The position numbers were made by a program, and so were the translations under genes. Source: Enterobacteriaceae bacterium (GTDB taxonomy: Bacteria; Pseudomonadota; Gammaproteobacteria; Enterobacterales; Enterobacteriaceae). From it: a stretch of 43,863 nt of DNA. The stretch lies in assembly GCA_031253755.1 (NCBI GenBank), contig JAIRVT010000002.1:1-43863 (forward strand), read 5' to 3'. The notes beneath the pieces were generated by a model. The model had not been told where the DNA came from and ran no database searches. It saw only the letters and a program-made list of their open reading frames with translations. Below are positions 15,940 through 31,157 of this stretch, in pieces (positions within the stretch are counted from its first letter, which is position 1; every line of letters starts with the position of its first letter).

Positions 15940-16677
15940 TTATTCCCAATTAAAACCAAAAGTTTTCGTTCCTGTTTGCTTTAATACAGTCCCCAATTTT
16001 ATTGCGTCATCATTAGAATAAGTACCCGCGTTAAGACTCCAATCGGGCGAATATGACCCAAGATTATAGATGCGAGCATCAACAGTAACAGTAAGATTTT
16101 TATTCAGTAGCTCCGTTACTTTCTGTTCATTATTCGGGCTGGCAACTAGTTTCATCCATATTGCATTTTGAGGTTCGCGATAAAAAAACATTGCAATGCT
16201 TGCAACATCTGTGCTGGTTTTCAACCCTGCCAGAGTACCGAAAGGTGATTCATTACCTGTCAAATACCCTGTGGGAGAAATATATCCCCAATCTTTCTGG
16301 TTATTGACGGTATCTACACCAGCGTCTGAGGTGAGATCGAAAGATAGCATATAATTATCGTACAGTTCCCAATTGCAAGAGAGCATATCTTGTCTGCTTA
16401 TCGCCCAAGGGAAAATAGTATTACCTCCGGTTACCTGCAATATATTAGTTATATTTTGCGGACCATTATACTCAGGTATCAGATAGGAATCAGTAGGCCA
16501 GGTATTGCGGCTTACAGGATGACCACGGAATAAATTGTTCATTGCCCACGCAAAAGAATATAGGGGGGCAACGAAAACATCCTCAAGGGTCATGGTTGCT
16601 GTGTATGTCACTTCAGGATGAAATTGCTCTGGTTTAAATGAACATACTGTGCTTGCTAATAGATTAACATCAGACAT
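15940..16677 (-). CDS. Tad2-like (DUF2829) two-domain protein A
   Basis: A 245-residue cytosolic-looking protein, first defined here by its paralogues. Residues 1-25 hold the family's CSFKPEQF motif. Residues about 35-105 resemble DUF2829/Tad2: SFAWAMNNLFRG, then R-N-T-WP-x-D-SYL, and PWAISRQDMLSCNWE. Tad2 of phages binds and hides the Thoeris signal nucleotide. Residues about 110-245 form the array's own C-terminal domain (LSFDLTS, KDWGYISPTG, FGTLAGL, NKNLTVTVDARIYNLG, KLGTVLKQTGTKTFGFNWE), which I cannot assign. It closely resembles the protein at 27854-28606. It is last in a four-gene unit; a 45-bp conserved leader with GAGG gives the start. Function as a nucleotide sponge is inference. 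Confidence 0.85.
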   Translation of the reverse strand: MSDVNLLASTVCSFKPEQFHPEVTYTATMTLEDVFVAPLYSFAWAMNNLFRGHPVSRNTWPTDSYLIPEYNGPQNITNILQVTGGNTIFPWAISRQDMLSCNWELYDNYMLSFDLTSDAGVDTVNNQKDWGYISPTGYLTGNESPFGTLAGLKTSTDVASIAMFFYREPQNAIWMKLVASPNNEQKVTELLNKNLTVTVDARIYNLGSYSPDWSLNAGTYSNDDAIKLGTVLKQTGTKTFGFNWE

Positions 16678-16722
16678 AAATACCTCACTTAATGATTTAT
16701 TAATAAAGGTTATTTCATTCTG
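16678..16722 (-). repeat. Conserved 45-bp leader, copy before gene A
   Basis: The sequence just upstream of the start codon, on the minus strand, ends ATTAAGTGAGGTATTT before ATG and begins CAGAATGAAATAACC. It is nearly identical in front of five array genes and contains the GAGG ribosome site and a conserved ATG-AAA-TAA triplet set. Confidence 0.9.
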
Positions 16723-16748
16723 CTAGTCGTTTAATGATTATTATTATC

Positions 16749-16769
16749 TAAGGCCACGTAGTGGCCTTA
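16749..16769 (-). repeat. Internal GGCCAC hairpin between genes B and A
   Basis: TAAGGCCAC-GTA-GTGGCCTTA is a perfect 9-bp stem with a 3-base loop. Unlike the end-of-operon copies it lacks a following T run on the minus strand (GATAATAATAATC), so it may slow or process the transcript rather than end it. Confidence 0.75.
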
Positions 16770-16793
16770 ATAAATAACGTGTGGATTTGATTA

Positions 16794-17564
16794 TTACTGA
16801 TCAAACCAGTTAAGGTAGAAAGTATTGGTTTTGTCTGTCTTTTTTAAGATGGCTCCTAATTTTTGTGCAGCTTCGTTATTATAGCTAACAGTGACTCTTG
16901 AATTTTTATTATCTATCATGGCAGTTGAGAAACCAAGATCATAGGGGATATTATCGACAGTGATATAAAGATGTTTATTAAGTAATGCTGCTGCATTCTG
17001 AAGGTTATTCTTATCAGTCGATACCCCAAATCCCCAATCTCCATGAGGAGGTGATGTTGTTGTTGTAGAAACTGAAGAGGTAAAAGCAAATATTGGAATT
17101 TTTGTAATCTTGGCGTTTGCAGTTACAGTATTCGGAGGCATTTGTAGTTTAGTATTACCAAAATTGAATGCAACTGAATTCATACAACCCCATATTTGTT
17201 GCGTACCGAATGTTATGGTTTCTGAAGTAACATCTACAGACATCATACCGTAAGGTTCCCAATTACATGCCAGCATCTCCTGTATTTCAGGAGTCCAGGG
17301 GCCATTGCTGCCATTTTGAGTTATCTGTTGAATAGAGCTAAGTTCCGCTTGCACATCCTGCACATAAGTAAGATATACGTCAGAAGGCCAATTACTGAGC
17401 CTTACAGCCTGATGCAGGAACGATTGAATCATTGCCCACGGGAAAGTTCCTGGTGGTGTAGCGGCATCATTATCAATCTTAAATGAAGGATCGATCGTTA
17501 CCTGATATTTAAAATAATCAGGATCAAATAAACAATTATTATTTAATTTATTAACATCAGACAT
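16794..17564 (-). CDS. Tad2-like (DUF2829) two-domain protein B
   Basis: A 256-residue member. The start MSDVNKLNNNCLFDPDYF carries the Cys-Phe-Pro motif. The Tad2-like domain spans about residues 38-108: TFPWAMIQSFLHQAVRLSNW, PSDVYL, and PWTPEIQEMLACNWEPYG. The C-terminal domain shows MSVDVTS, QQIWGCMNSVAFNFG (where others have WGY and G), LLNKHLYITVDNIPYDLGFS and KLGAILKKTDKTNTFYLNWF. No signal peptide or membrane segment. It follows gene C by 73 bp and precedes A by 116 bp, with its own copy of the leader. Confidence 0.85.
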   Translation of the reverse strand: MSDVNKLNNNCLFDPDYFKYQVTIDPSFKIDNDAATPPGTFPWAMIQSFLHQAVRLSNWPSDVYLTYVQDVQAELSSIQQITQNGSNGPWTPEIQEMLACNWEPYGMMSVDVTSETITFGTQQIWGCMNSVAFNFGNTKLQMPPNTVTANAKITKIPIFAFTSSVSTTTTSPPHGDWGFGVSTDKNNLQNAAALLNKHLYITVDNIPYDLGFSTAMIDNKNSRVTVSYNNEAAQKLGAILKKTDKTNTFYLNWFDQ

Positions 17565-17607
17565 AAATACCTCACTTAATGGTTTATTAATAAAGGTTAT
17601 TTCATCT
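17565..17607 (-). repeat. Conserved leader, copy before gene B
   Basis: Same leader as at 16678-16722 with few differences; the ATG-AAA-TAA set and TTAAGTGAGGTATTT before the start codon are kept. Confidence 0.9.
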
Positions 17608-17610
17608 TAT

Positions 17611-17633
17611 GATCTTGGAAATATTTCAAGATT
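17611..17633 (-). repeat. Hairpin between genes C and B
   Basis: AATCTTGAAATATTTCCAAGATC-like arms (minus strand) pair over about 9 bp. It takes the place of the GGCCAC hairpin found in the other gaps, but differs in sequence, and lies next to the stop of gene C. Confidence 0.55.
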
Positions 17634-17637
17634 ATAA

Positions 17638-18024
17638 TCATGCAGTTGGGAAATTATAAATACCCCAATCACAGGACGTCATTTCCGGCACTTGTACTGC
17701 CCAAGATTGCGGAGGATTATTGCCGGATACTTTTACAATATCATCGATAATATTATTATTTTGTGGATTATATACAGGTTTAATATATGTGTCAGCAGGC
17801 CAACTATTTAACCTCGCAGGCGTATTCCTGAACACCTGAACTATTGCCCACGGAAAAGAATGCATGGGAGCAACGAAAATATCCTCAACAAGATATTTTT
17901 TCCCCGGCGAGGGAACAACGTAAACTCCGCCAACAGTGCATGTAGTTGTGTTTTCTACACCAGGAAGAAATTGCTCAGGCGTAAATGCACAATTATTACT
18001 TTCTAGTAGATTAACATCACACAT
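17638..18024 (-). CDS. Tad2-like protein C, N-terminal domain only
   Basis: A 128-residue member consisting of the Cys-Phe-Pro start (NNCAFTPEQFLPGVEN) and one Tad2-like domain (HSFPWAIVQVFRNTPARLNS, WPADTYIKP, SWAVQVPEMTSCDWGIYNF), ending four residues after the domain. The C-terminal domain of its neighbours is missing. The extra segment VGGVYVVPSPGKKYLVEDIF lies between motif and domain. The stop codon is followed by a hairpin and the leader of gene B, so the loss looks like a clean deletion or an original single-domain form, close in layout to phage Tad2, which is a single domain. It may be functional. Confidence 0.75.
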   Translation of the reverse strand: MCDVNLLESNNCAFTPEQFLPGVENTTTCTVGGVYVVPSPGKKYLVEDIFVAPMHSFPWAIVQVFRNTPARLNSWPADTYIKPVYNPQNNNIIDDIVKVSGNNPPQSWAVQVPEMTSCDWGIYNFPTA

Positions 18025-18070
18025 AAATACCTCACTTAATGATTTTATTAATAAAGGTTATTTCATTCTG
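18025..18070 (-). repeat. Conserved leader, copy before gene C
   Basis: Same leader with one extra T (46 bases). It carries GAGG at the usual place and the ATG-AAA-TAA set. Confidence 0.9.
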
Positions 18071-18111
18071 TTAAATAAAATCTCATCATTATAGGGAATT
18101 CCATTATTATC

Positions 18112-18131
18112 TAAGGTCACGTAGTGACCTT
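18112..18131 (-). repeat. Internal hairpin between genes D and C with paired base change
   Basis: AAGGTCAC-GTA-GTGACCTT: compared with AAGGCCAC-GTA-GTGGCCTT elsewhere, both arms change together so pairing is kept. No T run follows on the minus strand. Confidence 0.75.
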
Positions 18132-18156
18132 GGAAAATAGTGTATGACTTCAATCA

Positions 18157-18978
18157 TTATTGATCAGACCAGAAAAGGGCACAATGAACGATTATTTGTT
18201 CAAGGCCAAATGGTCCGAGTACTAATTGGGAATATTTTTCTAATACAGCCCCTGCTTTTTGTGCATCAAATTGACTATAGCTAACAGTGGCTGTCTGATT
18301 GTCATTGCTTATAATGGAATTTCCGACGCCAAGATAGTAGCGTGTTTCACCAAGAGTGATATAAAAATGTTTACTAATTAACACCTTTGCAAGAGAAAGA
18401 TCATTCTGACTAAAGGATATCTCAAATACCAAAGTTCCAAGATTAGTTGTAGTTATATCTCGTGTGAAAGTCAATTGTAAAACATTTATAATAAAAGTAC
18501 TGTTAGTTAGCGCATTAGGGACACTTGTTAACCCAGATAAAGAACCAAAACGTTTCTCACCCGGTGCTAAATTACCCTTTCCAGATAGATAACCCCAACT
18601 TTGCTGATCCTTTCCAGGTATGCCAGTACCAGAAAAAATACCGCAATATAACAGGCCATGAGGAATCCAATCACAGGCCAGTACATCTTCTACCGTAGCA
18701 AACCAAAATGCGTTTACGAATTGATTATCTTTATCTTTCTGTTGAACAGAAAAAAGTTTTCCTTCCTTAAGTACGGGCTGAAGGTATGTACCTGCGGGCC
18801 AACTAGTACGAGTAACGGGTTGATCTTTATATAGTTGAACCATTGCTCCAGGGAAAGTTCTGTATGGTGTAGCAGCATCATTCTTAATCGTATATGACGG
18901 TTTGATATCTACCTGAACGGTAAAATCCTTAGGGTCAAATGAGCATGGTTTATTATTTGACATAGTAACTTCAGACAT
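18157..18978 (-). CDS. Tad2-like (DUF2829) two-domain protein D
   Basis: The longest two-domain member of its operon (273 residues) and its first gene. Start MSEVTMSNNKPCSFDPKDF, then a Tad2-like domain at about 37-115: TFPGAMVQLYKDQPVTRTSW (Gly replaces the usual Trp after Pro), PAGTYLQP, and FWFATVEDVLACDWIPHG. The C-terminal part has QSWGYLSGKGNL, FGSLSGL, LISKHFYITLGETRYYLG, KAGAVLEKYSQ, with a longer tail (GPFGLEQIIVHCALFWSDQ). A promoter TTGAGA-N17-TAATAT lies at 19042-19070, giving a leader of roughly 57 bases. Genes C, B and A follow without new promoters that I can see, so D-C-B-A reads as one unit. Confidence 0.85.
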   Translation of the reverse strand: MSEVTMSNNKPCSFDPKDFTVQVDIKPSYTIKNDAATPYRTFPGAMVQLYKDQPVTRTSWPAGTYLQPVLKEGKLFSVQQKDKDNQFVNAFWFATVEDVLACDWIPHGLLYCGIFSGTGIPGKDQQSWGYLSGKGNLAPGEKRFGSLSGLTSVPNALTNSTFIINVLQLTFTRDITTTNLGTLVFEISFSQNDLSLAKVLISKHFYITLGETRYYLGVGNSIISNDNQTATVSYSQFDAQKAGAVLEKYSQLVLGPFGLEQIIVHCALFWSDQ

Positions 18979-19023
18979 AAATACCTCACTTAATGGTTTA
19001 TTAATAAAGGCTATTTCATTCTG
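18979..19023 (-). repeat. Conserved leader, copy before gene D
   Basis: 45 bases as in the other copies; here the small set reads ATG-AAA-TAG, so the stop is kept although one base changed. Confidence 0.9.
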
Positions 19024-19041
19024 TTTCTAAATTACCGGATT

Positions 19042-19166
19042 ATATTATTTCGGTTAATATTTGATCTCAATAGAAAACCTAGCAATAGCACAAATACGAA
19101 TTAAAATAGTCTGCAATGCTATAAAGCTAATTTATTCATCGGATAGATAAGTCGGCAAGGTGTAAA
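19042..19166 (-). promoter_or_regulatory. Promoter and upstream box of the D-C-B-A unit
   Basis: On the minus strand: -35 TTGAGA (19065-19070), 17-base spacer beginning TCAAA, -10 TAATAT (19042-19047). A box TTTACACCTT (19157-19166) lies 86 bases upstream of the -35 and is joined to a second shared block AATAAATTAG. The same arrangement recurs in front of the other four units. Confidence 0.8.
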
Positions 19167-19372
19167 TATAGTGGTTGGTTCGGAGTGGTAATGCTATTTC
19201 TTTAATATACAAGTTATTATCTATTTTAAAACAATGAAATTATCACAATGCAATATTTAAATAATTTAAGAAATAACCTATATGTTTTGTTTGGTTACGA
19301 AATTTATTTATTGAGTTTTATTATTGGTGGTTTATAAATGTTTTTTATATTTAATTAATTTCAAGTTGTAAT

Positions 19373-19405
19373 CCAGCTTCAAGATAACACTCATCTTGAA
19401 GCTGG
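19373..19405. repeat. 12-bp palindromic stem-loop
   Basis: CCAGCTTCAAGA and its exact complement flank nine bases; AATCC before it resembles the CCAATCCAA of the palindromic repeats at 29833 and 42364. Confidence 0.7.
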
Positions 19406-19490
19406 ATTGGTTTATGATAATGAAGACCCAAATTAAAAGCCATATTACGTTTCTGAAGCATGATGGTGTATGCCTTTCATCTTTGTGTAT

Positions 19491-19520
19491 TTACATCTCC
19501 CCGTGTAGCAGGAGATGTAA
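19491..19520 (-). terminator. Hairpin downstream of the fimbrial operon
   Basis: A perfect 10-bp stem (TTACATCTCC / GGAGATGTAA) with a CCGTGTAGCA loop lies 48 bases past the adhesin stop. On the minus strand the tail is ATACAC, so termination may be weak; it may instead be a repeat of the CCCCGC stem-loop family. Confidence 0.45.
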
Positions 19521-19568
19521 GCGGTGCATACCGTAACGTGTAATTTGAATAGTAATGCCATAGTGTGG

Positions 19569-20654
19569 TTAATAAAACGTCGCAGTTACACTAAATTCTG
19601 CTGTTATTGGATTTGGAGGATGAGAATCTGCTGCCTGAAGAGGTACTGGCCTAACGATAAAATTTAAAGTTGCTGAAGGAGATAATTCGGTGAGTCTAAT
19701 CGGAGTTTGGTTAAAGAAGTTTATTATTTTGTCGGCGTTATGAAAAATAAAGTCATCATTTTTTTCATCGAACATAACCTTAAAACCAATACTGTCATTG
19801 TTGGATTTTAAGACGTCAGGTTGTGCAGACGATATTGCCGTGGTCGCGCCTGCCGGTCTGAATGTTAAGCTAAAGCCCATGGGGAGTGCTTGATTAGGGA
19901 AATCAGGTATTGCGCCGGGGGTTGCGCAGCTAATAAGAATAGAACCACTAACCAGATAACTGGGGTCTTGATTTAATATATTGTTGTATATCAAATTGTT
20001 TGGGAAAGTAAAATCTTTTAAAATACGTAGATCGCAGGTTTTTATGTTGTTGTCTATTGTTGTAATACTCAAACCTGACGAGAAATTTTTTTTATCCAGA
20101 GTGTGATAGGCTGCTTGTGTATCAAGATAACCAAATTTTACACCAAACTGACCATTTTGAGCTGTCTTAACTTCGCCATTAGTCCCTTCAGGAATTGTCA
20201 CTGATGCAGTTTTATATAACGCCAGCAGGATATCAACGGTTGTTCCCTGCCAGTTTTTATCTAACTTATTACCCTTTGTGCTGAGTTCAGCGGGTCCGAG
20301 AACTTCGGAAGATGAACGTTCAGTCACTTTAATTTTATAACCAATACCGGGAATATTTGTTGGAATCGGTGTGTCAATCGGCGTAGGTGCAGTCCCATCA
20401 GGCACGTCCGGGTACCAATAAACAAAAGAATCAATGAATTCAGTGTTGGCTGTGCATTTTATTGGCAAACTTTTCACTATGGGGTATTCACCAATAAGAT
20501 TCTGATTATTTTCATAGGGCATATTCGCCGGAATAGAAAGTGTTATCCCCGAACCGGGTGTAATGTCAGGAATCGGGAGGCAATATGGATCACTGGCAGA
20601 ATAAGTACTATAAAAATACAGGCAGAAACAAAAAATAAATGATTTTATTTTCAT
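19569..20654 (-). CDS. Fimbrial tip adhesin-like protein
   Basis: A 361-residue secreted protein, last gene of the fimbrial operon. A signal peptide (MKIKSFIFCFCLYFYSTYSA) precedes SDPYCLPIPDITPG. The length and layout are those of two-domain tip adhesins: an N-terminal receptor-binding half (to about residue 200) and a C-terminal pilin-like half beginning near KTCDLRILKDF, with a second Cys in ISCATPG and the alternating C-terminal strand ITAEFSVTATFY (Phe/Tyr at the end) for chaperone binding. The receptor is not predictable. ATG 20654 has AGGTG eight bases upstream and starts 11 bases after the upstream gene. Confidence 0.8.
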   Translation of the reverse strand: MKIKSFIFCFCLYFYSTYSASDPYCLPIPDITPGSGITLSIPANMPYENNQNLIGEYPIVKSLPIKCTANTEFIDSFVYWYPDVPDGTAPTPIDTPIPTNIPGIGYKIKVTERSSSEVLGPAELSTKGNKLDKNWQGTTVDILLALYKTASVTIPEGTNGEVKTAQNGQFGVKFGYLDTQAAYHTLDKKNFSSGLSITTIDNNIKTCDLRILKDFTFPNNLIYNNILNQDPSYLVSGSILISCATPGAIPDFPNQALPMGFSLTFRPAGATTAISSAQPDVLKSNNDSIGFKVMFDEKNDDFIFHNADKIINFFNQTPIRLTELSPSATLNFIVRPVPLQAADSHPPNPITAEFSVTATFY

Positions 20655-20665
20655 ATTATATGCAC

Positions 20666-21253
20666 CTATGAATATATAACCGTATATTTGACCGTTGATG
20701 TAATAATACCGGGTTTAGAACCGCCACTTGGGTTTGTCGCAAAAATGGTTGCCCTAAAAATAAAATTGCTACCATAACTTCCAATAGCATCTCCTGACAT
20801 TATCTGCTGAACCAAGGGAGGGTTGCTTGCTTTGATAAGAACGGGAGCTCCATCGGATTTAATCCATTCAAGTCTTATGGCATAGCCAACGCTGGCAATT
20901 TTGGCGTCTTCTGGATTGTTCAGGCCGAATGTATTTGCAAAATAATCACCATTATCAGCATCAGGGGGATTATTCGAAAAATTCAGAGTGATATTCTGAA
21001 GGCCCGTATCACAATTTGAGAACCCAATGATAAATTGAGTCCAGGGAGCACTATTCTGCGTCTTTGTGGTATTGAATGGATGCAGTGGCACTAAAATATT
21101 GCCATCATCGGTCAGATTACAGGTTGCATATGAGATATTTGCAGTAATGGTGATATTCAGGGGCTGGGATTGATCCGCCCCAACATACCCCGGCACACCC
21201 ATGATCAACAGACCATGTACCAACCCCCACAACAGAACCTTCTTCATCACCAT
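20666..21253 (-). CDS. Minor fimbrial subunit
   Basis: A 195-residue pilin-like protein with a signal peptide (MKKVLLWGLVHGLLIMGVPG, cleavage near YVGA-DQ), first Cys in SYATCNLTDDG and second in GFSNCDTGLQNI, the usual disulfide of pilins, then the family pattern of GYAIRLEW and a C-terminal strand STVKYTVIYS. It probably joins tip and shaft. It starts four bases after the chaperone ends. Start could be ATG 21253 or the second Met two codons later. Confidence 0.85.
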   Translation of the reverse strand: MVMKKVLLWGLVHGLLIMGVPGYVGADQSQPLNITITANISYATCNLTDDGNILVPLHPFNTTKTQNSAPWTQFIIGFSNCDTGLQNITLNFSNNPPDADNGDYFANTFGLNNPEDAKIASVGYAIRLEWIKSDGAPVLIKASNPPLVQQIMSGDAIGSYGSNFIFRATIFATNPSGGSKPGIITSTVKYTVIYS

Positions 21254-21257
21254 GCAC

Positions 21258-21932
21258 TCACTTTAAGTTGTACTTGCGGCGGCCGCCGTAATCATCCACC
21301 GCTTCCACTTCCACCGCGCCATTGAGCGGCTGCTGGAGATTCACTTCACTAAACGGGGCAAACTGGCTTAAGGCTTTATCCACACCTTCGCTCAGTTTTA
21401 GTTTTTTGCCGTTTACCGAAACTTCCGTCACCGCAAAATAGTAGGGCGTCGGGTTTTTCAGAATATTGCCATTGGCTTTGAGCTGTTGTTCAGCACCGGC
21501 GCGGCCTTCAATCAGCGTTGTCGGGCGATAAAACAGCTTCACCTGCGTGTTCATTGCCAACGACAGCACATTCTCGCCCTCTTTGGGAGCAGGAGGGATT
21601 TCCTGTACATTCAGCCAAAACAGCGATTCCCGATCCTTCGGCAGGTTAGGGTTGATATTGATTAAGCGGATAATCTGCTTTTGTTTGGCATCAACGCGGA
21701 AAAACGTCGGTGCCGGTGTGAAAAACACCTCATCTTTCGGCTGCGTGGTATTGTCTATCCACACCTGCCCGCCGAACGTCACGTTGGCGTGGTTAGTCAC
21801 TTCAACGGAAATATTTTTTCGCCCTTCCGGGTAAATAAAACGGGTGCTATCCAGCGTAAACGCCGCCATTGCCTGACTGCTCAGTACCAGACCGAGTGCT
21901 AACGTAATAAAAAGACGCGGTTGTTTATTCAC
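21258..21932 (-). CDS. Periplasmic fimbrial chaperone (PapD family)
   Basis: It folds pilins in the periplasm by donor-strand complementation and hands them to the usher. The 224-residue protein has a signal peptide (NKQPRLFITLALGLVLSSQA-MA), the subunit-anchoring Arg in DSTRFIYPEGRKN, the RESLFWLNVQEIPP motif, and the Lys in NTQVKLFYRPTTL. I start it at GTG 21932, which overlaps the usher end (TTGTGAATAA) and has AGAGG six bases before it; the open frame runs further up to 22196 but lies wholly inside the usher gene in another frame. The coupling with usher is typical. Confidence 0.9.
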   Translation of the reverse strand: MNKQPRLFITLALGLVLSSQAMAAFTLDSTRFIYPEGRKNISVEVTNHANVTFGGQVWIDNTTQPKDEVFFTPAPTFFRVDAKQKQIIRLININPNLPKDRESLFWLNVQEIPPAPKEGENVLSLAMNTQVKLFYRPTTLIEGRAGAEQQLKANGNILKNPTPYYFAVTEVSVNGKKLKLSEGVDKALSQFAPFSEVNLQQPLNGAVEVEAVDDYGGRRKYNLK

Positions 21933-24453
21933 AATGAACCTCTTTGGCTTTATTTTCTCCCGCAACGATGCCCTGCATACTGAAGCGGCACTGTTGCCCG
22001 TTTTGCTGCTGAACCGTGATGGACGCCGGTGACTCCGTAACGTTAACCAGCAGGATGCCGCCATCAGCGACAAAGCCCGCGTAGACGTCCTTCTCCGTCC
22101 GGGCGGAGCTGCCCAGCGGGAGCGGTTTGCCATCACGCCCGACGACCCGCAGGATGTAACGATGAATTTCGGTATGGCCGAATTCGCGGTAAACAATGGC
22201 GCGCTCCGTCGGCACCACGCTGTAAACGGTGTTTAACAGTTCCACATTTTCCGGCACCTGTTCGGTATTAATGCGGATCGAGTTGTTGCTGTAAGGAGAG
22301 ACATACAGCACGGTATTGCCCTGACTGTTGGTAGGCTGTGAGTTGTTAAAGCGTACGCCCGGTATCCCTTTTAGGTTGACCACCGCGACAGTGCTGCTCT
22401 GCTCACGGGCGAACAGCAAGCCGGTTGGCACAGTACCAATCACCGAACCGGAGACGCTGGCGGACAGCGTGGAGTTGCTGCTGTAAGCCGAGCTGCTTTG
22501 TGACGCGCTGAAATTGGTCTGCACCGCATCAAAGGCGACACCGGTATAGGCGGAGATGCTTTTCGAATCGCGGTTCAGGCTGCTGTTCAGGTTGTAATTC
22601 ACCCGCTCATTAAAGCGGCCGGAGAAACCGGTATTAAAGGTGGTGTTGCCGTCACGGTTATAGTTGACACTGGAGTTACTGTAGTAATCTTGCCCGAAGG
22701 CGGAGAACGGAATACTGACGCTGAATGAGGCGCCGTAATTACCCCGGTCAAAATAATAATATTTGCTGTAATTGGCATTCAGGTTAAGGAAGACGCGCTT
22801 GATCGAGGTGCTGATCCCCAGATTGGCACCGATATCACTTCTCCGGTGCTGGCGATAGGTTTGTGCCCAGCCGGATAAGCTGACGTAGCTGTTATCAAAA
22901 TTATGGGTCAGCGTGCCTTCATACCTTGCCTTGCGGTTATCCGGGTAGCGGTAGGTCGGGTTAAATTCAGCGAAATCGACATACTTTTCCCCCGTATAGT
23001 GGTAGCTCATCAATTGCAGATTGGTTTTTTCGGTCAGCCCCTTGGCGTATTTCACTCTGGCGCTGAAACCCATTTGTGTGGTGGACGGGTTATCTTTTTT
23101 ATAGATATCAGGGAAGCCAGTACCGGGAAAATCCGCGCCGGGAGAATAACTGTTGGGGAAATAGCTATCGCGGTAATAGCTATCACGATAGTAGCTGCTG
23201 GAATAATAGCTATAGGGAGAATTACTGTTATCGAAAACACTGCGTGCGCCGTTCACGCTGACAGAAAGCGCGCCGAGCAGCCCAAAATCCCGCGTCAGCC
23301 CAAGGCCGAGGCTCTGGTAATCTTTATGCAGGATCAAAGCGGTATTCAGGGTAAAAGGCTCAAAACCGTAATCCAGACTGGCGAGGGTGAAAAGCCCTTT
23401 GACATCACGGTGCCGGCGGGTGCCATCGGTGCGGGTTCCCACCACCAGATTGTAGTTAAAATCCCCTGAGCGCAGCAGGGTGGGCAGCGTCGTCACCGGA
23501 TAGGTACGGACAGTTTTTTCGCCGTTTTCTTCCTCGACAGTGACGGTTAAATCACCATTGCCGATAGGGGTGATATCCCGCAGCGAATAGGCGCCGGGAG
23601 GAACGATTTGGTTGTGGAGGGTGTAACTGCCTTGAGTGATGGTGATGCGGGCGTTGCTGTTGGCGACACCGGAAATCACCGGTGAATAGCCGCGCTGCGA
23701 CCACGGCACCATGCTGCTGTCGGAACGCAGCGCTGCGCCGTAAAAGCCGAAATCCGGCAGTAGGGTACTGGCAGTCTGGGTTTTGCCCAGGATCAGGTTG
23801 CCACGAATCGGCGCAATGGCGGTATAGAGCCGCGCATCGGGTGTCGAGAAACCCTGCCCGCTATAGGTACTGGTTTGCCCGGCTAATACCCAACGCCCCA
23901 GATTGGCATTCAGTTCGACATTGCCGTAAAACTGGGTTTTATTGTCATAGGAAGATTTGCGGGCATTGCCGTAATAGGTCAGGCGAAAACCCGGAATACC
24001 GTAATCCCAGTTTTCCGCGGCTAATTTATCAAGCACGGCAATTTGCGGAATGCTGAATGTCAGGGTCTGCATTCCGGTATTTAAGGTGATTTTCGCGCCG
24101 GGAAAACGGCCCAGAATATAACATTGGCGTTGTTGATCAAAATAAGGGGCGAACTCTGCCAGTTTAATTGGCAGAGCCGCAGCCGCGATCCATTCGGTGG
24201 ACAGGCATAATTCATCCGCCTCTTGTGGCGAAACCATTAATACCTGCCGCCCCAAACCTTCGCGGTTAAATTTAATATCCACGACATACTGGCCTTCCGG
24301 GTATTTTTCCGTTGCCAATAATATCGTCGGAATATTCCCTTTTGCACCACCGCGAATAAAATCCAGATTCAGGTCACTTTTTTCAGCCTGTGCGCTGAAC
24401 CCGGATAATATCAGCATGATCCATAAGGGCGACCTGATAATACAGGTGCGCAT
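21925..24453 (-). CDS. Outer membrane fimbrial usher (PapC/FimD family)
   Basis: The usher forms the pore through which pilins are assembled. The 842-residue protein has a signal peptide (CIIRSPLWIMLILSGFSAQA), the N-terminal chaperone-binding domain (LNLDFIRGGAKG... GQYVVDIKFN), a long beta barrel with plug (GYSPVISGVANSNARITITQ), and C-terminal domains ending HRYILRVVGRDGKPLPLGSS ... FSMQGIVAGENKAKEVHCE with the terminal Cys. ATG 24453 is chosen because AGAGGA precedes it; a second in-frame ATG lies 30 bases upstream. About residues 405-450 contain a Tyr/Ser/Asp-rich insert with YYRDSYYRDSYFPNSY, not typical of ushers. Its GC content is higher than that of the pilin genes beside it. Confidence 0.93.
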   Translation of the reverse strand: MRTCIIRSPLWIMLILSGFSAQAEKSDLNLDFIRGGAKGNIPTILLATEKYPEGQYVVDIKFNREGLGRQVLMVSPQEADELCLSTEWIAAAALPIKLAEFAPYFDQQRQCYILGRFPGAKITLNTGMQTLTFSIPQIAVLDKLAAENWDYGIPGFRLTYYGNARKSSYDNKTQFYGNVELNANLGRWVLAGQTSTYSGQGFSTPDARLYTAIAPIRGNLILGKTQTASTLLPDFGFYGAALRSDSSMVPWSQRGYSPVISGVANSNARITITQGSYTLHNQIVPPGAYSLRDITPIGNGDLTVTVEEENGEKTVRTYPVTTLPTLLRSGDFNYNLVVGTRTDGTRRHRDVKGLFTLASLDYGFEPFTLNTALILHKDYQSLGLGLTRDFGLLGALSVSVNGARSVFDNSNSPYSYYSSSYYRDSYYRDSYFPNSYSPGADFPGTGFPDIYKKDNPSTTQMGFSARVKYAKGLTEKTNLQLMSYHYTGEKYVDFAEFNPTYRYPDNRKARYEGTLTHNFDNSYVSLSGWAQTYRQHRRSDIGANLGISTSIKRVFLNLNANYSKYYYFDRGNYGASFSVSIPFSAFGQDYYSNSSVNYNRDGNTTFNTGFSGRFNERVNYNLNSSLNRDSKSISAYTGVAFDAVQTNFSASQSSSAYSSNSTLSASVSGSVIGTVPTGLLFAREQSSTVAVVNLKGIPGVRFNNSQPTNSQGNTVLYVSPYSNNSIRINTEQVPENVELLNTVYSVVPTERAIVYREFGHTEIHRYILRVVGRDGKPLPLGSSARTEKDVYAGFVADGGILLVNVTESPASITVQQQNGQQCRFSMQGIVAGENKAKEVHCE

Positions 24454-24575
24454 AAGCCCATCCTCTAAATTCAAACAAAACACGCAATATTTAATTTATT
24501 TGCCTTACCTTGGTGGAAATTAAATATAAGGTGGGGCGGTGTTTTTGGTTATTTATTTCGGGTGATGCTGGGTGA

Positions 24576-25118
24576 TTATTTATAGGCTATTGCATAACTT
24601 GCACTAGCTTCAACACTTCCTGTTTCAGCTTTCCCATTACTAATATTTACCATTTTCACACTATAACTAGGAGTAATTGGACCGGTTCCAGTAAATACTG
24701 TGTCCTGATTACCTTGACCTTCAGTAATAGGTGTTGTAGGTGTCGCTGTAATACCTTCAGTAACATCAGGAGTGATTTGAACAGCTACATCTTTTGATGT
24801 TCCTGTACTTCGGATACCTTTAGGCCCAAGCCCAGAAGCTTGCCAAGATACAGTGACTGTTGTTGCTGTTGCACATCCTGCATCACTACCAGCAGTTGGT
24901 ACCAGCTTAAATGTCTTTGGTGTTGAAGCTGGGTCATCACTTTTCATATTCCCCAGTTTTATAAGATTATTCTCTCCATCAGTTGATTCTGGGCTAATAT
25001 TGCAGGTGATGTCACTTACTGAACCACTAAACATAATTATTCCACCATCTTGATCAGCGTAAACTATCCCTGAAGCCATCACACTTACCACCAATGCCGT
25101 TATCGCTAATTTGTTCAT
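24576..25118 (-). CDS. Major fimbrial subunit
   Basis: First gene of the operon and likely shaft pilin: 180 residues with signal peptide (MNKLAITALVVSVMASGIVY-A), start of mature chain DQDGGIIMFSGSVSD, disulfide Cys pair in DITCNISPES and SDAGCATATT, and C-terminal strand SVEASASYAIAYK with the penultimate Tyr region used for donor-strand exchange. AGGAAAGTTT precedes the ATG. 122 bases separate it from the usher, enough for a partial stop signal that would favour pilin over usher, though I see no strong hairpin. I do not equate it with the characterised Xenorhabdus MrxA; it is too diverged to say. Confidence 0.87.
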   Translation of the reverse strand: MNKLAITALVVSVMASGIVYADQDGGIIMFSGSVSDITCNISPESTDGENNLIKLGNMKSDDPASTPKTFKLVPTAGSDAGCATATTVTVSWQASGLGPKGIRSTGTSKDVAVQITPDVTEGITATPTTPITEGQGNQDTVFTGTGPITPSYSVKMVNISNGKAETGSVEASASYAIAYK

Positions 25119-25450
25119 CTAAACTTTCCTACTTTAAAGGTTATACATAGAGAAAACGGGCAATATTGTCATATTTCCGGTTACAGACTGAGTTAATGCA
25201 ATATAGGCCCGTATTATCTTTAATGGGGGTTAGCCCATCGCTATATACTACCTTTCCCATATTTCGCACCTGCCGTGGCGTTAATTTATATACCCTAGGT
25301 AGTTTTAGAGTATAGATAAGGTTTTTTGATGTGATGAAATTTTTCTGAGATTTAGCGTTTGATTTAGGGTTGGTTTGGTTTGGTTTTTGGTAGTGCAACA
25401 AAAAGGCCACGTAGTGGCCTTGAATTCAGGTTGGAGAGTAGGTTTTAATA
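25119..25450. other. Region upstream of the fimbrial operon
   Basis: The 332 bases should carry the fimbrial promoter. I see no recombinase gene or convincing invertible repeat pair for phase variation. A frame of 89 codons exists on the minus strand (25141-25410) but begins inside the array terminator hairpin and is judged doubtful. Confidence 0.4.
25399..25421 (-). terminator. Terminator of the F-E unit
   Basis: Minus strand: AAGGCCAC-TAC-GTGGCCTT then TTTGTTG. It lies 30 bases past the stop codon of gene E. Confidence 0.88.
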
Positions 25451-26149
25451 TTAATCCCAGCTAAGGTCGAAATGAAGTGTTTTATTTTCATTTTCTTTTA
25501 GTAGAAGTCGTAATTTATATGCATCAGCGTTATTATTGCTATAATAAATAATAGTACTTGTACATTCTATATCACTCAGAGGAGCTGAAGTCACTCCAAG
25601 TGAGTAAACTGTATCATTAACTATAATATTGAGATTTTTCTTATGAAGAATATCCTTCATTTTTTGAAAATTATCCTGCTCATATTTTAGCCCCAAGGTT
25701 ATAGTGTTCTTGAAACCGATAGCACTGGCAGAGAAATAATCTATTTTTTCAACACCAAAATTAGACTTAAATTCTGTTAATGCACCAGCAGCACCAAAAT
25801 AGCCCCATTCGATACCACTTTCCACAATTTTTATACTAAAAGAAGCCATATTATAGAATGCCCAATCACAAGCGATCATCTCTTGCTGTTCAGGTTTCCA
25901 AGGTGAAGCACTTCCATCCTGTTTTATCCGCTGAAAATTGAGAAAACTGCCTGAATCATCATAGTTAGGACTAACATATACATTAGGTTTCCAGCCACTG
26001 CGCCTTACTTGCGGTTGAGTATCCATATATAATTGAATCATTGCCCACGGGAAAGTACCCTCTGGTGCAACTATTTTATTCGTATTAAGGATATATTGAT
26101 TGGAAGAGGATAAAAGATTTTTATTATCTAATTTATTTATTGTAGACAT
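25451..26149 (-). CDS. Tad2-like (DUF2829) two-domain protein E
   Basis: A 232-residue member, second gene of the F-E pair. The N terminus (STINKLDNKNLLSSSNQY) lacks the Cys of the usual CxFxPxxF motif. The Tad2-like domain covers about residues 28-100: GTFPWAMIQLYMDTQPQVRR, SGWKPNVYVSP, and PWKPEQQEMIACDWAFYNM. The C-terminal domain keeps SFSIK, IEWGYFGAAGAL, KKNLNIIVNDTVYSLG and KTLHFDLSWD. I start it at ATG 26149 because GAGG lies six to seven bases before it, as in the other members; the frame is open upstream to 26176. The usual leader has been lost here. 52 bases separate it from gene F. Confidence 0.84.
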   Translation of the reverse strand: MSTINKLDNKNLLSSSNQYILNTNKIVAPEGTFPWAMIQLYMDTQPQVRRSGWKPNVYVSPNYDDSGSFLNFQRIKQDGSASPWKPEQQEMIACDWAFYNMASFSIKIVESGIEWGYFGAAGALTEFKSNFGVEKIDYFSASAIGFKNTITLGLKYEQDNFQKMKDILHKKNLNIIVNDTVYSLGVTSAPLSDIECTSTIIYYSNNNADAYKLRLLLKENENKTLHFDLSWD

Positions 26150-26201: not shown

Positions 26202-26888
26202 TTAATTCCAACTGAAAATAATATCAAGCGTTTTACCATCATTTTGTATTATCAAATCACCAAACTTCTGTGTATCAAGGCCTTCATAAATAAAAGAACC
26301 CACATTACATATAATAGTTGTTTGTTTAGCAGAAAGTGAATAGACTTTATTATTAACGATAGCACCTAAGTTTTTATAAGCAAGTGCGTTTTGTATCTTA
26401 TGGTAATCAATTACATTAATAAACATGTTAAGCCATATAGTGGTGTTTTTTGAATCTTCAGGCTTTATAGATAAACTATCAATACGTTCAATATGAAAAC
26501 TACTTTGTACATTTGTGAATTTACCAATACTACCCCAAGACCCCCATTGACCATTATTATGACCAACTGTAAGTGTAAAAGACAGCCTATATTCAAATTC
26601 CCAATCGTGTGCTCCCATATCTTCATGATCAGGTGTCCAAAATAAAACGTTACCATCTGGTTTTACCAATTGAAAAGAGATAACATTACCAGGGCCATCG
26701 TAATCGTATATAGGTCTAACATATATATGAGGTTCCCATTTACTACGTCTTACTAATTTATCCATATACAATTGTATTATGGCCCAAGGAAATGAACCTA
26801 CAGGCGCAATTATTTCATCAATATTTAGAATATATTGATTGGAATTAAAAGGGCACTGTCCATTATCTAAGATATTAATACCAGACAT
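26202..26888 (-). CDS. Tad2-like (DUF2829) two-domain protein F
   Basis: A 228-residue member and first gene of its unit. MSGINILDNGQCPFNSNQYI is a variant Cys-Phe motif. The Tad2-like domain at about 30-100 reads GSFPWAIIQLYMDKLVRRSK, WEPHIYVRP and FWTPDHEDMGAHDWEFEYR. The C-terminal domain keeps GQWGSWGSIGKF (Ser for Tyr), FHIERIDSL, YKNLGAIVNNKVYSLS and KFGDLIIQNDGKTLDIIFSWN. It is the closest relative of gene E (shared INLDN..., APxGSFPWAxIQLYMD), so the pair likely arose by local duplication. The promoter is at 26966-26994. Confidence 0.84.
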   Translation of the reverse strand: MSGINILDNGQCPFNSNQYILNIDEIIAPVGSFPWAIIQLYMDKLVRRSKWEPHIYVRPIYDYDGPGNVISFQLVKPDGNVLFWTPDHEDMGAHDWEFEYRLSFTLTVGHNNGQWGSWGSIGKFTNVQSSFHIERIDSLSIKPEDSKNTTIWLNMFINVIDYHKIQNALAYKNLGAIVNNKVYSLSAKQTTIICNVGSFIYEGLDTQKFGDLIIQNDGKTLDIIFSWN

Positions 26889-26965
26889 AAATACCTCACG
26901 TTATTATTAATGGATTAAAAAAGAAAAGGGTAATTATTTAGTTATTAAAACTAAATTTCATATTT

Positions 26966-27273: not shown

Positions 27274-27299
27274 AAAAAGGCCATGCCGGAGCATAGCCT
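27274..27299 (-). terminator. Terminator of the H-G unit
   Basis: Minus strand: AGGCTATGC-TCCG-GCATGGCCT with one mismatch, followed by TTTTATTTT. A diverged form of the array hairpin. Confidence 0.8.
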
Positions 27300-27323
27300 C
27301 AATTCTGACTGTAATATTAACTA

Positions 27324-27818
27324 TTATTTCCAGCAAAGCTCAAACTTCAGCGGCTTACCGACATTTTTTTGGATTAACTCACCTAATTTTTCTGCTACAT
27401 CTCCATAATACAAAACCGCATCCATGGCTTTTCGGCTATTATCAGAAATAGAGAATGATTTTTTGGCGTAATTGTCTTCTGGATTAAAAATGCCAAGATC
27501 ATAGTTTATCCCATTAACCGTCACCGTCAGATTTTTTTCATGCAGCCAATCTATAACATGAATAAAATTTTCCGCATTAAATAATACAACCAATGTGATA
27601 TTTCCAACCGGAGAATAAGTAGGATCAATTTCAAAAGAGAACATTAATACATCGTCAAGACGGGTATTTGAACTGGCATTAAAATCAGTTAAGACGCCAT
27701 AAGTCAAATAAGGTTCTGTAAAGTTTTCTTTATCACTTAAATATCCCCAATCTTCTTTATAGGTAAATTTACCGATACCGGGCGTGAGATTAAAAGATAG
27801 TTTGTAAGTTTCGGACAT
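27324..27818 (-). CDS. Array protein G, C-terminal domain only
   Basis: A 164-residue protein made only of the array's C-terminal domain: MSETYKLSFNLTPGIGK, EDWGYLSDKENF, YGVLTDFNASS, a long beta region, LHEKNLTVTVNGINYDLGIF, and KLGELIQKNVGKPLKFELCW. There is no Tad2-like domain and no Cys-Phe motif. It starts at its own ATG behind TCTCC-complementary GGAG (minus strand CAGGAGAAATATTT), 35 bp after gene H, so the two are surely cotranscribed. A stand-alone copy suggests that the domain folds and works by itself or pairs with partner proteins. The domain family is unknown to me. Confidence 0.78.
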   Translation of the reverse strand: MSETYKLSFNLTPGIGKFTYKEDWGYLSDKENFTEPYLTYGVLTDFNASSNTRLDDVLMFSFEIDPTYSPVGNITLVVLFNAENFIHVIDWLHEKNLTVTVNGINYDLGIFNPEDNYAKKSFSISDNSRKAMDAVLYYGDVAEKLGELIQKNVGKPLKFELCWK

Positions 27819-27853
27819 AAATATTTCTCCTGTAACAAAATATAGAATTGGAA

Positions 27854-28606
27854 TTATTCCCAGTTAAAGCCAAAATATTTAGTGCCTTGTTGCATTAATA
27901 CCTTACCTAAATTTATTGAATCATCTGTACTACCATACATAATCGTTATGCCATCCGCTGAATAACCATAGCCCTCATATAAACCCACGCCAAGGTTATA
28001 GAGATTACTATCAACAGTGACAGTAAGGTTTTTCTTGATTAACGCTTTTATGCTGTCAACATTAGTGGTGGACAATTTCAACAATATATATTCACTACTC
28101 TCGCGATAGCAAAACATTAACACATTTTCAATATTCGTATCTTTGCCAATTGTCAACTTAACTAACGAACCAAAAGGGTGTTCATTACCATCAACAAAAT
28201 CTCCTTTGTCAGACATATATCCCCAATCATGAGAATCGTCATCCGTAGCACTATTGCCTAGTTTGACATCAAAAGAGAGCATAAAACGGCTCGGTTCCCA
28301 ATCACAATGTAGCATATCTGGTAGACTTATTGCCCAGGGTTCAGTGGTATTACCTCTGATCACCTGTAGAATATCAATAATATTCTTTTGGTCATCATAT
28401 TTAGGTATCAGATAGGTATCAACAGGCCAAATATTGCGGCTCACCGGAATGCCCCGGAGTACTTGATTCATTGCCCATGCAAAAGAATACATGGGAGCAA
28501 CAAAAACATCCTCAAGGGTCATGGCTGTTGTGTTTGTCACCACCGGGTGAAATTGCTCTGGTTTAAACGAACATACTTTACTTGCTAATGTATTAACTTC
28601 AGACAT
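27854..28606 (-). CDS. Tad2-like (DUF2829) two-domain protein H
   Basis: A 250-residue member strongly similar to protein A: MSEVNTLASKVCSFKPEQFH, then EDVFVAPMYSFAWAMNQVLR, PVSRNIWPVDTYLIPKY, and PWAISLPDMLHCDWEPSRF. The C-terminal domain reads LSFDVKL, HDWGYMSDKGDF, FGSLVKL, IKKNLTVTVDSNLYNLGVG and NLGKVLMQQGTKYFGFNWE. Gene H sits first in an H-G unit with the full leader and promoter. Its likeness to A, which lies 11 kb away across the fimbrial genes, shows duplication preceded or accompanied insertion of the fimbrial block. Confidence 0.86.
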   Translation of the reverse strand: MSEVNTLASKVCSFKPEQFHPVVTNTTAMTLEDVFVAPMYSFAWAMNQVLRGIPVSRNIWPVDTYLIPKYDDQKNIIDILQVIRGNTTEPWAISLPDMLHCDWEPSRFMLSFDVKLGNSATDDDSHDWGYMSDKGDFVDGNEHPFGSLVKLTIGKDTNIENVLMFCYRESSEYILLKLSTTNVDSIKALIKKNLTVTVDSNLYNLGVGLYEGYGYSADGITIMYGSTDDSINLGKVLMQQGTKYFGFNWE

Positions 28607-28651
28607 AAATACCTCACTTAATGGTTTATTAATAAAGGTTATTTCATCCTG
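28607..28651 (-). repeat. Conserved leader, copy before gene H
   Basis: 45 bases, same as copies before genes A-D: starts CAGGATGAAATAACC and ends TTAAGTGAGGTATTT before the ATG. Confidence 0.9.
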
Positions 28652-28669
28652 CCAGTAATTTACTGATTT

Positions 28670-28793
28670 ATACTAATAGGACTACCATTTGATCTCAATA
28701 GAATATCTAATAGTGGTATAAATAACCTCAAAGTATACAGCGGAGTGATAAAACTAATTTATTAATCGGATATATAATCCAGTAAGGTGTAAA
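28670..28793 (-). promoter_or_regulatory. Promoter and upstream box of the H-G unit
   Basis: Minus strand: -35 TTGAGA (28693-28698), 17-base spacer beginning TCAAA, -10 TAGTAT (28670-28675). The box ACACCTT with TTT ahead (28784-28793) lies 85 bases upstream, next to the shared block ATTAATAAATTAG. Confidence 0.8.
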
Positions 28794-28985
28794 ATGAGTA
28801 TTTGATTCTGTTTGATTCGTTATTCTAAATAAAATCAAGTTGTTTGTTTTGCGTAATTAAATTAATTATCACAGGAAAATACTTTAAATACTGTAGATAT
28901 AACATTGTGTATTTATTCAAACCTGAAATGGTATCGTTTAGTCGTTTTATTTTGGATTTATTATTTTATAACGGAACAGTAAAAA

Positions 28986-29008
28986 GAAAAAGGCCACATA
29001 GTGGCCTT
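28986..29008 (-). terminator. Terminator of gene I
   Basis: Minus strand: AAGGCCAC-TAT-GTGGCCTT then TTTCTTTTT, 32 bases past the stop. Confidence 0.88.
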
Positions 29009-29040
29009 GGGGAGAAAAACTTAAATTTGATAATGATTAA

Positions 29041-29556
29041 TTATGCAGACCATGTGAAGGTAAACGTTTTTAACAAGCCTGTATCGCGTAATTGAGGAGC
29101 TAACCCATCTACATCACTGCCATTATCAATTACATAAGCAACAGTGAATGATTCTTTTGGGCCATCAGTTAAATAGCTGGCATCTATAGGATTAAGAACA
29201 TATGAACCAGCAGAAGCTGATGAATAAGAAACAGAAACCGTTGTGCGTCTAAGGAGTATTGCTTTTAAATCCTCGAAGGCAGTTGGATTATTTGGGTAAG
29301 TGGTTGCTCTAAAAAATATATTATTCGATGTATTAACATCAGTATAAAACATATCAATTCTTTTAATTATTGCAGTACTATCATTCTTAATAGTTAAGTG
29401 ACCAAAAGGATATTGACTATATACTCCTGTGCTAGTCATATAACCCCATTCTTGATCACCAGCCGTATCAGATATATGTTTACCTAATGTAAGATCAAAA
29501 GATAAATTGTAATCGATAAATGAAGAATGTTCATCTGACTTATTTACTTTAGACAT
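29041..29556 (-). CDS. Array protein I, C-terminal domain only
   Basis: A 171-residue protein: a short MSKVNKSDEHSSFIDYN start that keeps the MSxVN beginning of the family, then the C-terminal domain (LSFDLTLGKHISDTAGD, QEWGYMTSTGVYSQYPFGHL, a beta-rich middle, LLRRTTVSVSYSSASAGSYV, and GLLKTFTFTWSA). The Tad2-like domain is missing, apparently by deletion between the first ten codons and the LSFDL segment. It stands alone with its own promoter (29614-29642) and terminator. Its C-terminal domain is more diverged than that of G. Confidence 0.75.
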   Translation of the reverse strand: MSKVNKSDEHSSFIDYNLSFDLTLGKHISDTAGDQEWGYMTSTGVYSQYPFGHLTIKNDSTAIIKRIDMFYTDVNTSNNIFFRATTYPNNPTAFEDLKAILLRRTTVSVSYSSASAGSYVLNPIDASYLTDGPKESFTVAYVIDNGSDVDGLAPQLRDTGLLKTFTFTWSA

Positions 29557-29613
29557 AGATACCTCATCTGTTTATTTTAAAGGAAGGATGTTTTATTGCT
29601 AAATAACCATTGT

Positions 29614-29738
29614 ATATTAATATGGTTATTTTTTGATCTCAAGAGGCTATCTTGAAATTGTTAAAATACACATTTAAATAGGCTTTAAAATTACAGATCT
29701 AATTTATTAATCTATTATTTAATTCAATAAGGTGTAAA
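29614..29738 (-). promoter_or_regulatory. Promoter and upstream box of gene I
   Basis: Minus strand: -35 TTGAGA (29637-29642), 17-base spacer beginning TCAAA, -10 TAATAT (29614-29619). The box TTTACACCTT (29729-29738) lies 86 bases upstream of the -35. Confidence 0.8.
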
Positions 29739-29832
29739 TCTAGTGTTTGCTACTGGATAAAATGGTTTTTATTTAATAGACAATGTGTTATTTTTTTTTG
29801 AGTGATAAATTATTACATGGGATATTTTCTTG

Positions 29833-29893
29833 ATATACCAATCTAATTTTAGAATGCGTGTTATTTCTCCCCGCGTAGTGGGAAAAAATAAGG
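29833..29893 (+). repeat. CCCCGC stem-loop repeat, copy 1
   Basis: ATATACCAATCTAATTTTAG, AATGCGTGTTATTTCTCCCC and GCGTAGTGGG match, in opposite orientation, the element at 42361-42424. The stem here is imperfect. Confidence 0.65.
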
Positions 29894-30025
29894 CTTAGTG
29901 TTGTTTTGAAAATAGAAAATTGAAGTTAGAAATATATAGAATGGAAACAGCATTTGTTTTTGTTTAATGCTGAAATTGTTTTTTGTAGGTTTATTATATT
30001 CAGTTGATTATTTTTTTATTAAAAA

Positions 30026-30050
30026 TAAAAAGGCCACAAATAGTGGCCTT
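30026..30050 (-). terminator. Terminator of gene J
   Basis: Minus strand: AAGGCCAC-TATTT-GTGGCCTT then TTTATTTTT, 24 bases past the stop codon. Confidence 0.88.
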
Positions 30051-30074
30051 GGAGAGTAAAGATTGATTTTAAGA

Positions 30075-31157
30075 TTATATCCAATTTAACCAATACGTTT
30101 TAGGTATGCCTGTTTGTTTCTTTAATATAGCACTTAATTTTTGAGCATCACCACCACTATAATTAACCGTGGCTTCTGGGTAAAAGGGATCACCTTCAAT
30201 GGGAGTAGCAACGCCAAGGTCATAGCGTACACCATCAACAGAAACATAAAAATTCTTTTTAAGTAATGCTACTGCTTCTTGCATGTATGCTGGAAAGACC
30301 CTTATTGAAAATGACACTATTCCATCGGTCGAGAGTGATGTTTCAGTATTGTCAGCAGACTCAAAATAAAACATTGATACTAAAGGAGCGAATGAACTTA
30401 TGTTATCTTCAATGATATCTAAACTACCACAAGAATTCTTATTAACGGTTGCTGCACCAAGGTAAGACAAATAACCCCAGTCATACATAAGGTCATTCTC
30501 ATTCAGGTTATGAAGATCATGATATCTGCTATGGCCTGAAGTTAAGTTAAAAGATAGATTAGGTGAGTATAGTTCCCAATTACACAGCAAAAGGTCATCT
30601 ATATCACTCCATTCAGTAAATTTTCCGGACGAGTTAAATTTCTTAATAACGCTTTGGGTATCTACAGCCGACAAACGATCAGGAACGACAATATATTCGC
30701 CTTCATCCCAAGTTTTAAGGCGAGCACCTTTGCCTAAGAACACTTGCATCAATGCCCATGGCGCACTGCCTACGGGAGCAATATCTCCCTGATTACCTGT
30801 ATATAAATTAGGATCATATGGGCAAACAAGCGTGCTGGGAACGAGTTCTTCATTTTTATATGAAGAAGCGGTATTTACCCAATTGCAGGCAGTAAAATCT
30901 TCGGCTTCCGCATTCCAGACACTTGGCATTCCAAAAGCGCCAAAATGATTAATAGCGGCGTTAGGCCCATAACCCGTCAGTTGTATATATGTATCTGCCG
31001 GCCAGGTTGTACGGCGAAGAGTGGGACGGTAACTGGGATTATATTTTAACAATGTAGTCAATGCCCATACAAAATTACCCATTTTCGGGCTTCCGTTAGG
31101 ATAATCACTAGGGTCAAATGGGCACTTAAGTTTATTTAATTCATTTACATCAGACAT
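30075..31157 (-). CDS. Tad2-like protein J with two N-terminal domains
   Basis: A 360-residue member built N+N+C. Unit 1: LKCPFDPSDYPNGSPK motif, then GNFVWALTTLLKYNPSYRPT, WPADTYIQL, VWNAEAEDFTACNWV. Unit 2 repeats the motif (LVCPYDPNLYTGNQ) and domain (SAPWALMQVFLGKGARLKTW, DEGEYIVVP, EWSDIDDLLLCNWELY). The C-terminal domain follows: LSFNLTSGHSR, YDWGYLSYLGAATV, LLKKNFYVSVDGVRYDLG, KLSAILKKQTGIPKTYWLNW. The duplicated motif shows that motif plus domain form the unit of duplication. The frame opens at 31232, but that point is upstream of the expected transcript start; ATG 31157 with GAGG fits the family. It forms its own unit. Confidence 0.85.
   Translation of the reverse strand: MSDVNELNKLKCPFDPSDYPNGSPKMGNFVWALTTLLKYNPSYRPTLRRTTWPADTYIQLTGYGPNAAINHFGAFGMPSVWNAEAEDFTACNWVNTASSYKNEELVPSTLVCPYDPNLYTGNQGDIAPVGSAPWALMQVFLGKGARLKTWDEGEYIVVPDRLSAVDTQSVIKKFNSSGKFTEWSDIDDLLLCNWELYSPNLSFNLTSGHSRYHDLHNLNENDLMYDWGYLSYLGAATVNKNSCGSLDIIEDNISSFAPLVSMFYFESADNTETSLSTDGIVSFSIRVFPAYMQEAVALLKKNFYVSVDGVRYDLGVATPIEGDPFYPEATVNYSGGDAQKLSAILKKQTGIPKTYWLNWI

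Follow-up and report, generated by a model that had tools for sequence, protein, structure and literature searches.

A ten-gene Tad2–DUF7823 array in a Xenorhabdus-lineage chromosome as a candidate island of prophage-spread nucleotide sponges

Why should a bacterial chromosome hold ten neighbouring genes related to Tad2 (DUF2829), a family of phage proteins that sequester nucleotide immune signals? The question is raised by positions 15940–31157 of contig JAIRVT010000002.1 (assembly GCA_031253755.1, an insect-killing bacterium deposited as Enterobacteriaceae bacterium and counted here with Xenorhabdus), which was analysed over a stretch of 43,863 nucleotides, called the window below. The best-supported statement is that the source lineage holds an amplified, mostly diverged island of genus-wide prophage cargo. 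Morons are the lysogenic-conversion genes of phages, and we read the array as a lineage-specific expansion of such cargo genes, spread by prophages of Xenorhabdus and Photorhabdus and encoding two-domain nucleotide sponges; we give this reading a probability of roughly 0.45. Tad2 itself is already known, and what is new is its junction with DUF7823 on a shared 5′ module.

Genes and domains of the array

A sequence-only reading of the window, made without database searches, had described ten same-strand paralogues in one region and related them to Tad2. Ten frames on the minus strand were confirmed, and the relationship to Tad2 is backed both by sequence and by a predicted fold, the AlphaFold2 model of copy A showing the Tad2 fold. 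Six genes combine a Tad2-like with a DUF7823 domain, namely A (15940–16677, 245 amino acids), B (16794–17564), D (18157–18978), E (25451–26149), F (26202–26888) and H (27854–28606), while J (30075–31157) has two Tad2-like domains before DUF7823. The remaining three are shorter: C (17638–18024, 128 amino acids) is Tad2-like alone, G (27324–27818, 35 bp downstream of H) is DUF7823 alone, and I (29041–29556) joins the start typical of the family to a DUF7823-like rest without Tad2. The shared N-terminus suggested where the ATG of E lies (its open reading frame is listed from 26176), and the start of J was set by the shared 5′ module (listed start 31232). A and H are 56% identical.

The Tad2-like family PF11195 scores above the 25-bit Pfam cut-off in A, D, E, F and J and below it in B (22.6 bits), C (15.0 bits) and H (24.5 bits); the Pfam scan gave no match to it in G or I. 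DUF7823 (PF25136), a curated family, is matched above the cut-off by eight of the ten proteins (A, B, D, E, F, G, H and J). I matches neither family, was picked up by a home-made family profile and carries the 5′ module of the family. None of the ten matches a known anti-phage defence protein in PADLOC-DB at E 0.01, and the sole NCBIfam hit at E 1, for D, was weak and unrelated.

Distribution among genomes

DUF7823 was found in all 30 Xenorhabdus genomes, the source genome included, with 1–10 matches each and 129 in total, and Tad2-like domains in 29 of them. Outside the genus it is rare: eight of 246 genomes in a sample of the family carry DUF7823, three of them Xenorhabdus (4 of 154 genera), as do two of 398 genomes in a sample of the phylum, both Xenorhabdus. 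A scan of named genomes, whose query was an alignment of ten close members, yielded 69 relatives among 79 pattern matches, 60 in Xenorhabdus and nine in Photorhabdus (genera counted by eye). When genome contigs were scanned with the single protein H, 94 pattern matches and no relatives were obtained, probably because the window copies have diverged. Plasmids and isolated phages searched with the X. hominickii copy L095 gave no full-length member, and isolated phages again gave none when the query came from a different genus or was the DUF7823 portion of A; a DNA search of E. coli genomes found no member.

Genus members are mostly single or in small arrays, and other clusters hold about three units (by eye), so ten is the largest array seen. 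The earlier reading called a chromosomal bank of many copies unusual; only the array size stands out, the family as such being ordinary for the genus. The array is split by a chaperone-usher fimbrial gene set (19569–25118, minus strand; chaperone and usher assigned by eye) that lies outside the family, and is flanked by HutD and hydrolase genes that are near neighbours in other species too. In the 18 intervals read from the 29 other genomes of the genus, no such array and no fimbrial set was found between HutD and the hydrolase; one interval has a DUF7823 gene just outside. The array thus looks like an island of the source lineage at a variable spot.

A shared 5′ module and terminators

What unites many of these scattered genes, apart from their domains, lies upstream of them. 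In 27 of 41 named members the preceding ~100 bp consist of TTGAGA, 17 bases, TAATAT, a leader ending AAGTGAGG and the start codon. Among these 27, median pairwise identity is 76% in the 5′ region, the corresponding values being 64% for the initial 300 bases of coding sequence and 57% for the DNA farther upstream. A sequence model of the module (R1) was built from 25 named members together with window copies D and H. The scan scored 125 candidates per genome, so that its counts are lower bounds: at least 108 sites outside the source genome and at least seven within it, in at least 27 of 30 genomes, and located upstream of seven of the ten window genes and of at least 80 of 122 DUF7823 matches elsewhere. 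In the window, on the minus strand, the top-scoring copy precedes D (18976–19083, E 9e-21), with the promoter-like hexamers TTGAGA and TAATAT 17 bases apart, leader, ribosome-binding site and start codon; the copy of H lies at 28604–28713 (E 4.5e-19), and the others precede A (16675–16775), B (17562–17641), C (18022–18080), I (29554–29653) and J (31155–31270). No conserved pair was predicted for an RNA structure of the leader, and Rfam gave no window match above the gathering score. GGA motifs would be compatible with control by an RNA-binding protein such as CsrA. Many members have an ATG-AAA-stop mini-frame in their conserved leader, for example within 28604–28713, possibly by chance.

Terminator-like hairpins on the same strand follow A (15895–15914), E (25403–25421), G (27277–27300), I (28990–29008) and J (30030–30050). 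Terminators are predicted for five of the ten window genes and 29 of the 41 named members versus 20 of 170 control frames, a comparison to be read with the fact that the controls include operon-internal genes. Promoter and terminator of their own, as expected of morons, are thus predicted for members of the family. Together, these signals suggest eight transcription units in the window, J, I, H-G, F-E, D, C, B and A, with E and F perhaps forming a single unit.

The module is not confined to Tad2. The 108 R1 sites listed precede genes for Tad2 plus DUF7823 (69), Tad2 only (7), DUF7823 only (11) or neither (21). Among 18 of the last group that were fetched, four stand before Ig-like proteins of ~135 amino acids (Big_1 below the Pfam cut-off in all three that were scanned) and one before a coiled-coil protein; the rest precede truncated or interrupted family genes or are unclear. 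The Ig-like genes (L279, L282, L284, L287) and the coiled-coil gene (L281) have the promoter/leader and also the first codons of the Tad2–DUF7823 genes. Such a distribution could be explained by a mobile 5′ module that is shared by Xenorhabdus prophages and islands, joined to varied passengers (Tad2–DUF7823 proteins with a fast-changing second domain, Ig-like and coiled-coil proteins) and shuffled into arrays, the Tad2–DUF7823 proteins being a new, diversifying class of sponges that read undescribed signals. Taken as a whole, passengers included, we consider this rather unlikely.

Association with prophages

A scan of viral contigs gave 42 loci among 103 pattern matches, of which five are distant Tad2 domains from other sources. 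IMG/VR proviruses match 19 of the 69 named loci at ≥99% identity, and eight of ten in X. hominickii. Genes homologous to tail-fibre, tail-fibre-assembly, spanin, Q or lysozyme clusters occur in 20 of 40 neighbourhoods of ~15 kb, hand-chosen from 12 genomes, versus none of 20 random regions from seven genomes; the contrast is overstated, because the five classes were drawn from the family's own neighbourhoods, these were chosen by hand, and the random regions do contain prophage genes of other kinds, terminase and head proteins among them. In a tally against PHROG, phage genes are present in both sets: among the first 25 families listed for each, tail-fibre and Q families (5–7 members each) lead for 148 neighbours, and major head and terminase families (3–4 each) for 148 random genes. 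The comparison therefore shows which prophage sites the genes occupy, beside tail-fibre and late-promoter/lysis genes, better than it shows an excess of prophage. Caudo_TAP was tried as a prophage marker in ten genomes and proved too narrow, few family genes lying within a few kb of it by eye. Inverse autotransporters of the invasin/intimin type were seen near L067, L074, L080, L081, L082, L083, L087 and L088.

The genes thus resemble phage morons in the promoter- and terminator-like signals around many members and in the tail-fibre and Q/lysis genes that adjoin them in many genomes. The window array differs in lying outside a visible prophage and in being tandemly amplified.

Several of these results weigh against a prophage-spread sponge cargo. 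Fourteen of the 41 named members, mostly relatives with a long insertion in the Tad2 domain, carry a different upstream region. The provirus match is limited to 19 loci, with IMG/VR covering part of the genomes concerned, and full-length members are absent from the isolated phages of the collection. Next to the window array itself, no phage gene was found among the 20 other window frames by Pfam; the only phage-like item there is an integrase N-terminal (SAM-like) piece at 1195–1749, beside a sigma factor gene. Among the seven full-length window copies, six depart from the conserved Tad2 pattern in at least one position, and nucleotide-signalling defence markers are scarce in the genus; both points are taken up below.

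Conserved positions of the Tad2 domain

Can the window copies still be expected to bind a nucleotide? Conservation was counted in 27 full-length genus members hand-picked from DUF7823 loci, because the patterns of the named-genome scan contained part of the Tad2 motif; the positions are conserved ones and not computed ligand contacts. R57, W60, W91, A100, D102 and W103 are kept in all 27 members, P93 and D97 in 26 and C101 in 25. From this set A deviates by I93, S100 and N102, B by L57, E97 and N102, D by A93 (plus G44), H by I93 and H100, and the second domain of J by L57, D93, L100 and N102. E deviates by E97 only, and F by H101 only, a His also present in two of the 27 others. F retains every conserved position common to SPO1 Tad2 and E nearly does so, its one change there being Asp to Glu. 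A loss of the pocket residues in all ten copies, which would have spoken against the earlier claim, is thus not what these positions show.

A quick tree places A, B, D, E, F and H with L144, one of the provirus copies of X. hominickii (SH-aLRT 92, the fork being drawn open); J stands apart on a long branch, and D also has a long end branch. These branches, the altered positions in six of seven copies, the three single-domain pieces among the ten genes and a dN/dS of 0.40 between A and H would suit a decaying remnant, whose duplicates have drifted since the loss of the prophage and have no present function. However, the Tad2 domains of A and H alone give 0.24, F keeps all conserved positions except 101, and by eye the 5′ modules of A, B, C, D and H hardly differ over their final 45 bases. 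We regard decay as improbable and expect that the window copies, mostly diverged as they are, may continue to work.

The length of the domain speaks to the ligand. The stretch between the two Trp residues that bracket beta2–beta5 measures 31–33 residues in the seven window copies. In 45 relatives it measures 28–37 residues in 36 and 53–57 in the other nine, which are phage-type, and in SPO1 Tad2 and ModTad2 48 residues (counted by eye). A review ties a long insertion here to the binding of cyclic dinucleotides, and by the length criterion alone the insertion of the dinucleotide-binding type (SptTad2, AcrIIA7) is absent from the seven window copies. According to the review and to titles of PDB entries, some Tad2 proteins do bind cyclic dinucleotides including cGG, and the array could in principle bind those of the insect or of the cell itself. 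Because the window stretch is short, the binding of insect dinucleotides, one of three roles offered by the sequence-only reading, is not favoured, and dinucleotide binding of either kind appears very unlikely.

Among relatives, L026 (301–1707) encodes three consecutive Tad2 domains. The phage-type L148, L153, L155 and L157 keep Tad2 next to a diverged C-terminal domain unmatched by Pfam at E 0.01, and L146, L151, L152 and L154 look similar by eye.

The second domain and the proposed function

To our knowledge DUF7823 has no known function, and its name is absent from the listed literature on Tad2-like, DUF2829 and DUF7823 proteins from 2023 on. Its fold resembles that of phage proteins, mostly unnamed, including a baseplate/tail-fibre connector protein. 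For nine close named pairs, chosen by hand, dN/dS was estimated by simple counting on short stretches with possible recombination: it ranges from 0 to 0.46 in the Tad2 domain, and in the C-terminal DUF7823 domain from 0.09 to 0.30 in five pairs and from 0.76 to 1.54 in four. Tad2 is the better conserved and DUF7823 the faster-changing part of the protein.

We hypothesize that many units carry their own promoter/leader and terminator and could therefore be expressed from an otherwise silent prophage or its relic. The protein would be a cytosolic two-domain sponge, in which the Tad2-fold domain at the N-terminus captures an immune signal of nucleotide type and withholds it from the effector; a ligand of the ADP-ribose type would be likelier than a cyclic dinucleotide, and the variable DUF7823 domain may set specificity or partner. 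Sponging, which we infer from the fold and the conserved positions, is less certain for most window copies and least doubtful for F.

Blocking of nucleotide-based defence is a possible role. ThsB_TIR was detected in two and SMODS in three of the 30 Xenorhabdus genomes, and neither was found in the source assembly (83% complete), these two being the only TIR and nucleotidyltransferase families searched. If the proteins are sponges, resident systems, whether ThsB_TIR Thoeris or SMODS-type CBASS, are therefore not what they usually target.

The genus-wide presence of the family exceeds that of both markers, as would be expected if the Tad2 fold were a mere scaffold and the proteins acted in lysogenic conversion outside nucleotide defence, in the association with insects or nematodes or in rivalry between strains, with DUF7823 and Ig-like domains as binding modules. 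The 5′ module before four Ig-like proteins and one coiled-coil protein fits such a role, as do the Ig-like units that adjoin family units in G254 and G270, the rapid change and phage-protein likeness of DUF7823, and inverse autotransporters in eight of 40 neighbourhoods (class assigned by eye; Big_1/Invasin_D3 in one member). The autotransporter link, however, is non-significant against the control (1/20, p 0.25), and four of the eight cases are one conserved neighbourhood. No signal sequence was seen by eye, and the better conservation of the Tad2 domain also argues against a scaffold. This explanation is possible, with the odds against it, and we prefer the prophage-spread sponge.

Compared with known members of Tad2/DUF2829 (PF11195; SPO1 Tad2, ModTad2, SptTad2, AcrIIA7/HgmTad2), the window proteins are joined to DUF7823 or in tandem, multi-copy, short in the beta2–beta5 stretch, mostly altered at conserved positions and provided with a shared promoter/leader. 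Tad2 sponges of solved structure are small, with one domain of ~90–100 residues, and an anti-defence sponge of this family is defined as a tetramer that inhibits defence by binding gcADPR or another immune nucleotide. Tad1, Acb2 and Acb4 are alike in the proposed mode of action only, their folds differing according to a review and a preprint. With Tad2–DUF7823 or DUF7823 genes in every genome searched, the genus would offer a series with a conserved Tad2 and a faster second part, in which one can ask which ligands Tad2 binds and why lysogens keep it; the timing of production can be approached through the shared 5′ module. If the proteins are not sponges, they show that anti-defence cannot be read off a Tad2 match by itself.

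Elsewhere in the window, no bacteriocin precursor with a double-glycine was seen by eye near positions 36137–39557, where a Peptidase-C39 ABC exporter and an HlyD-type partner are encoded as in bacteriocin export.

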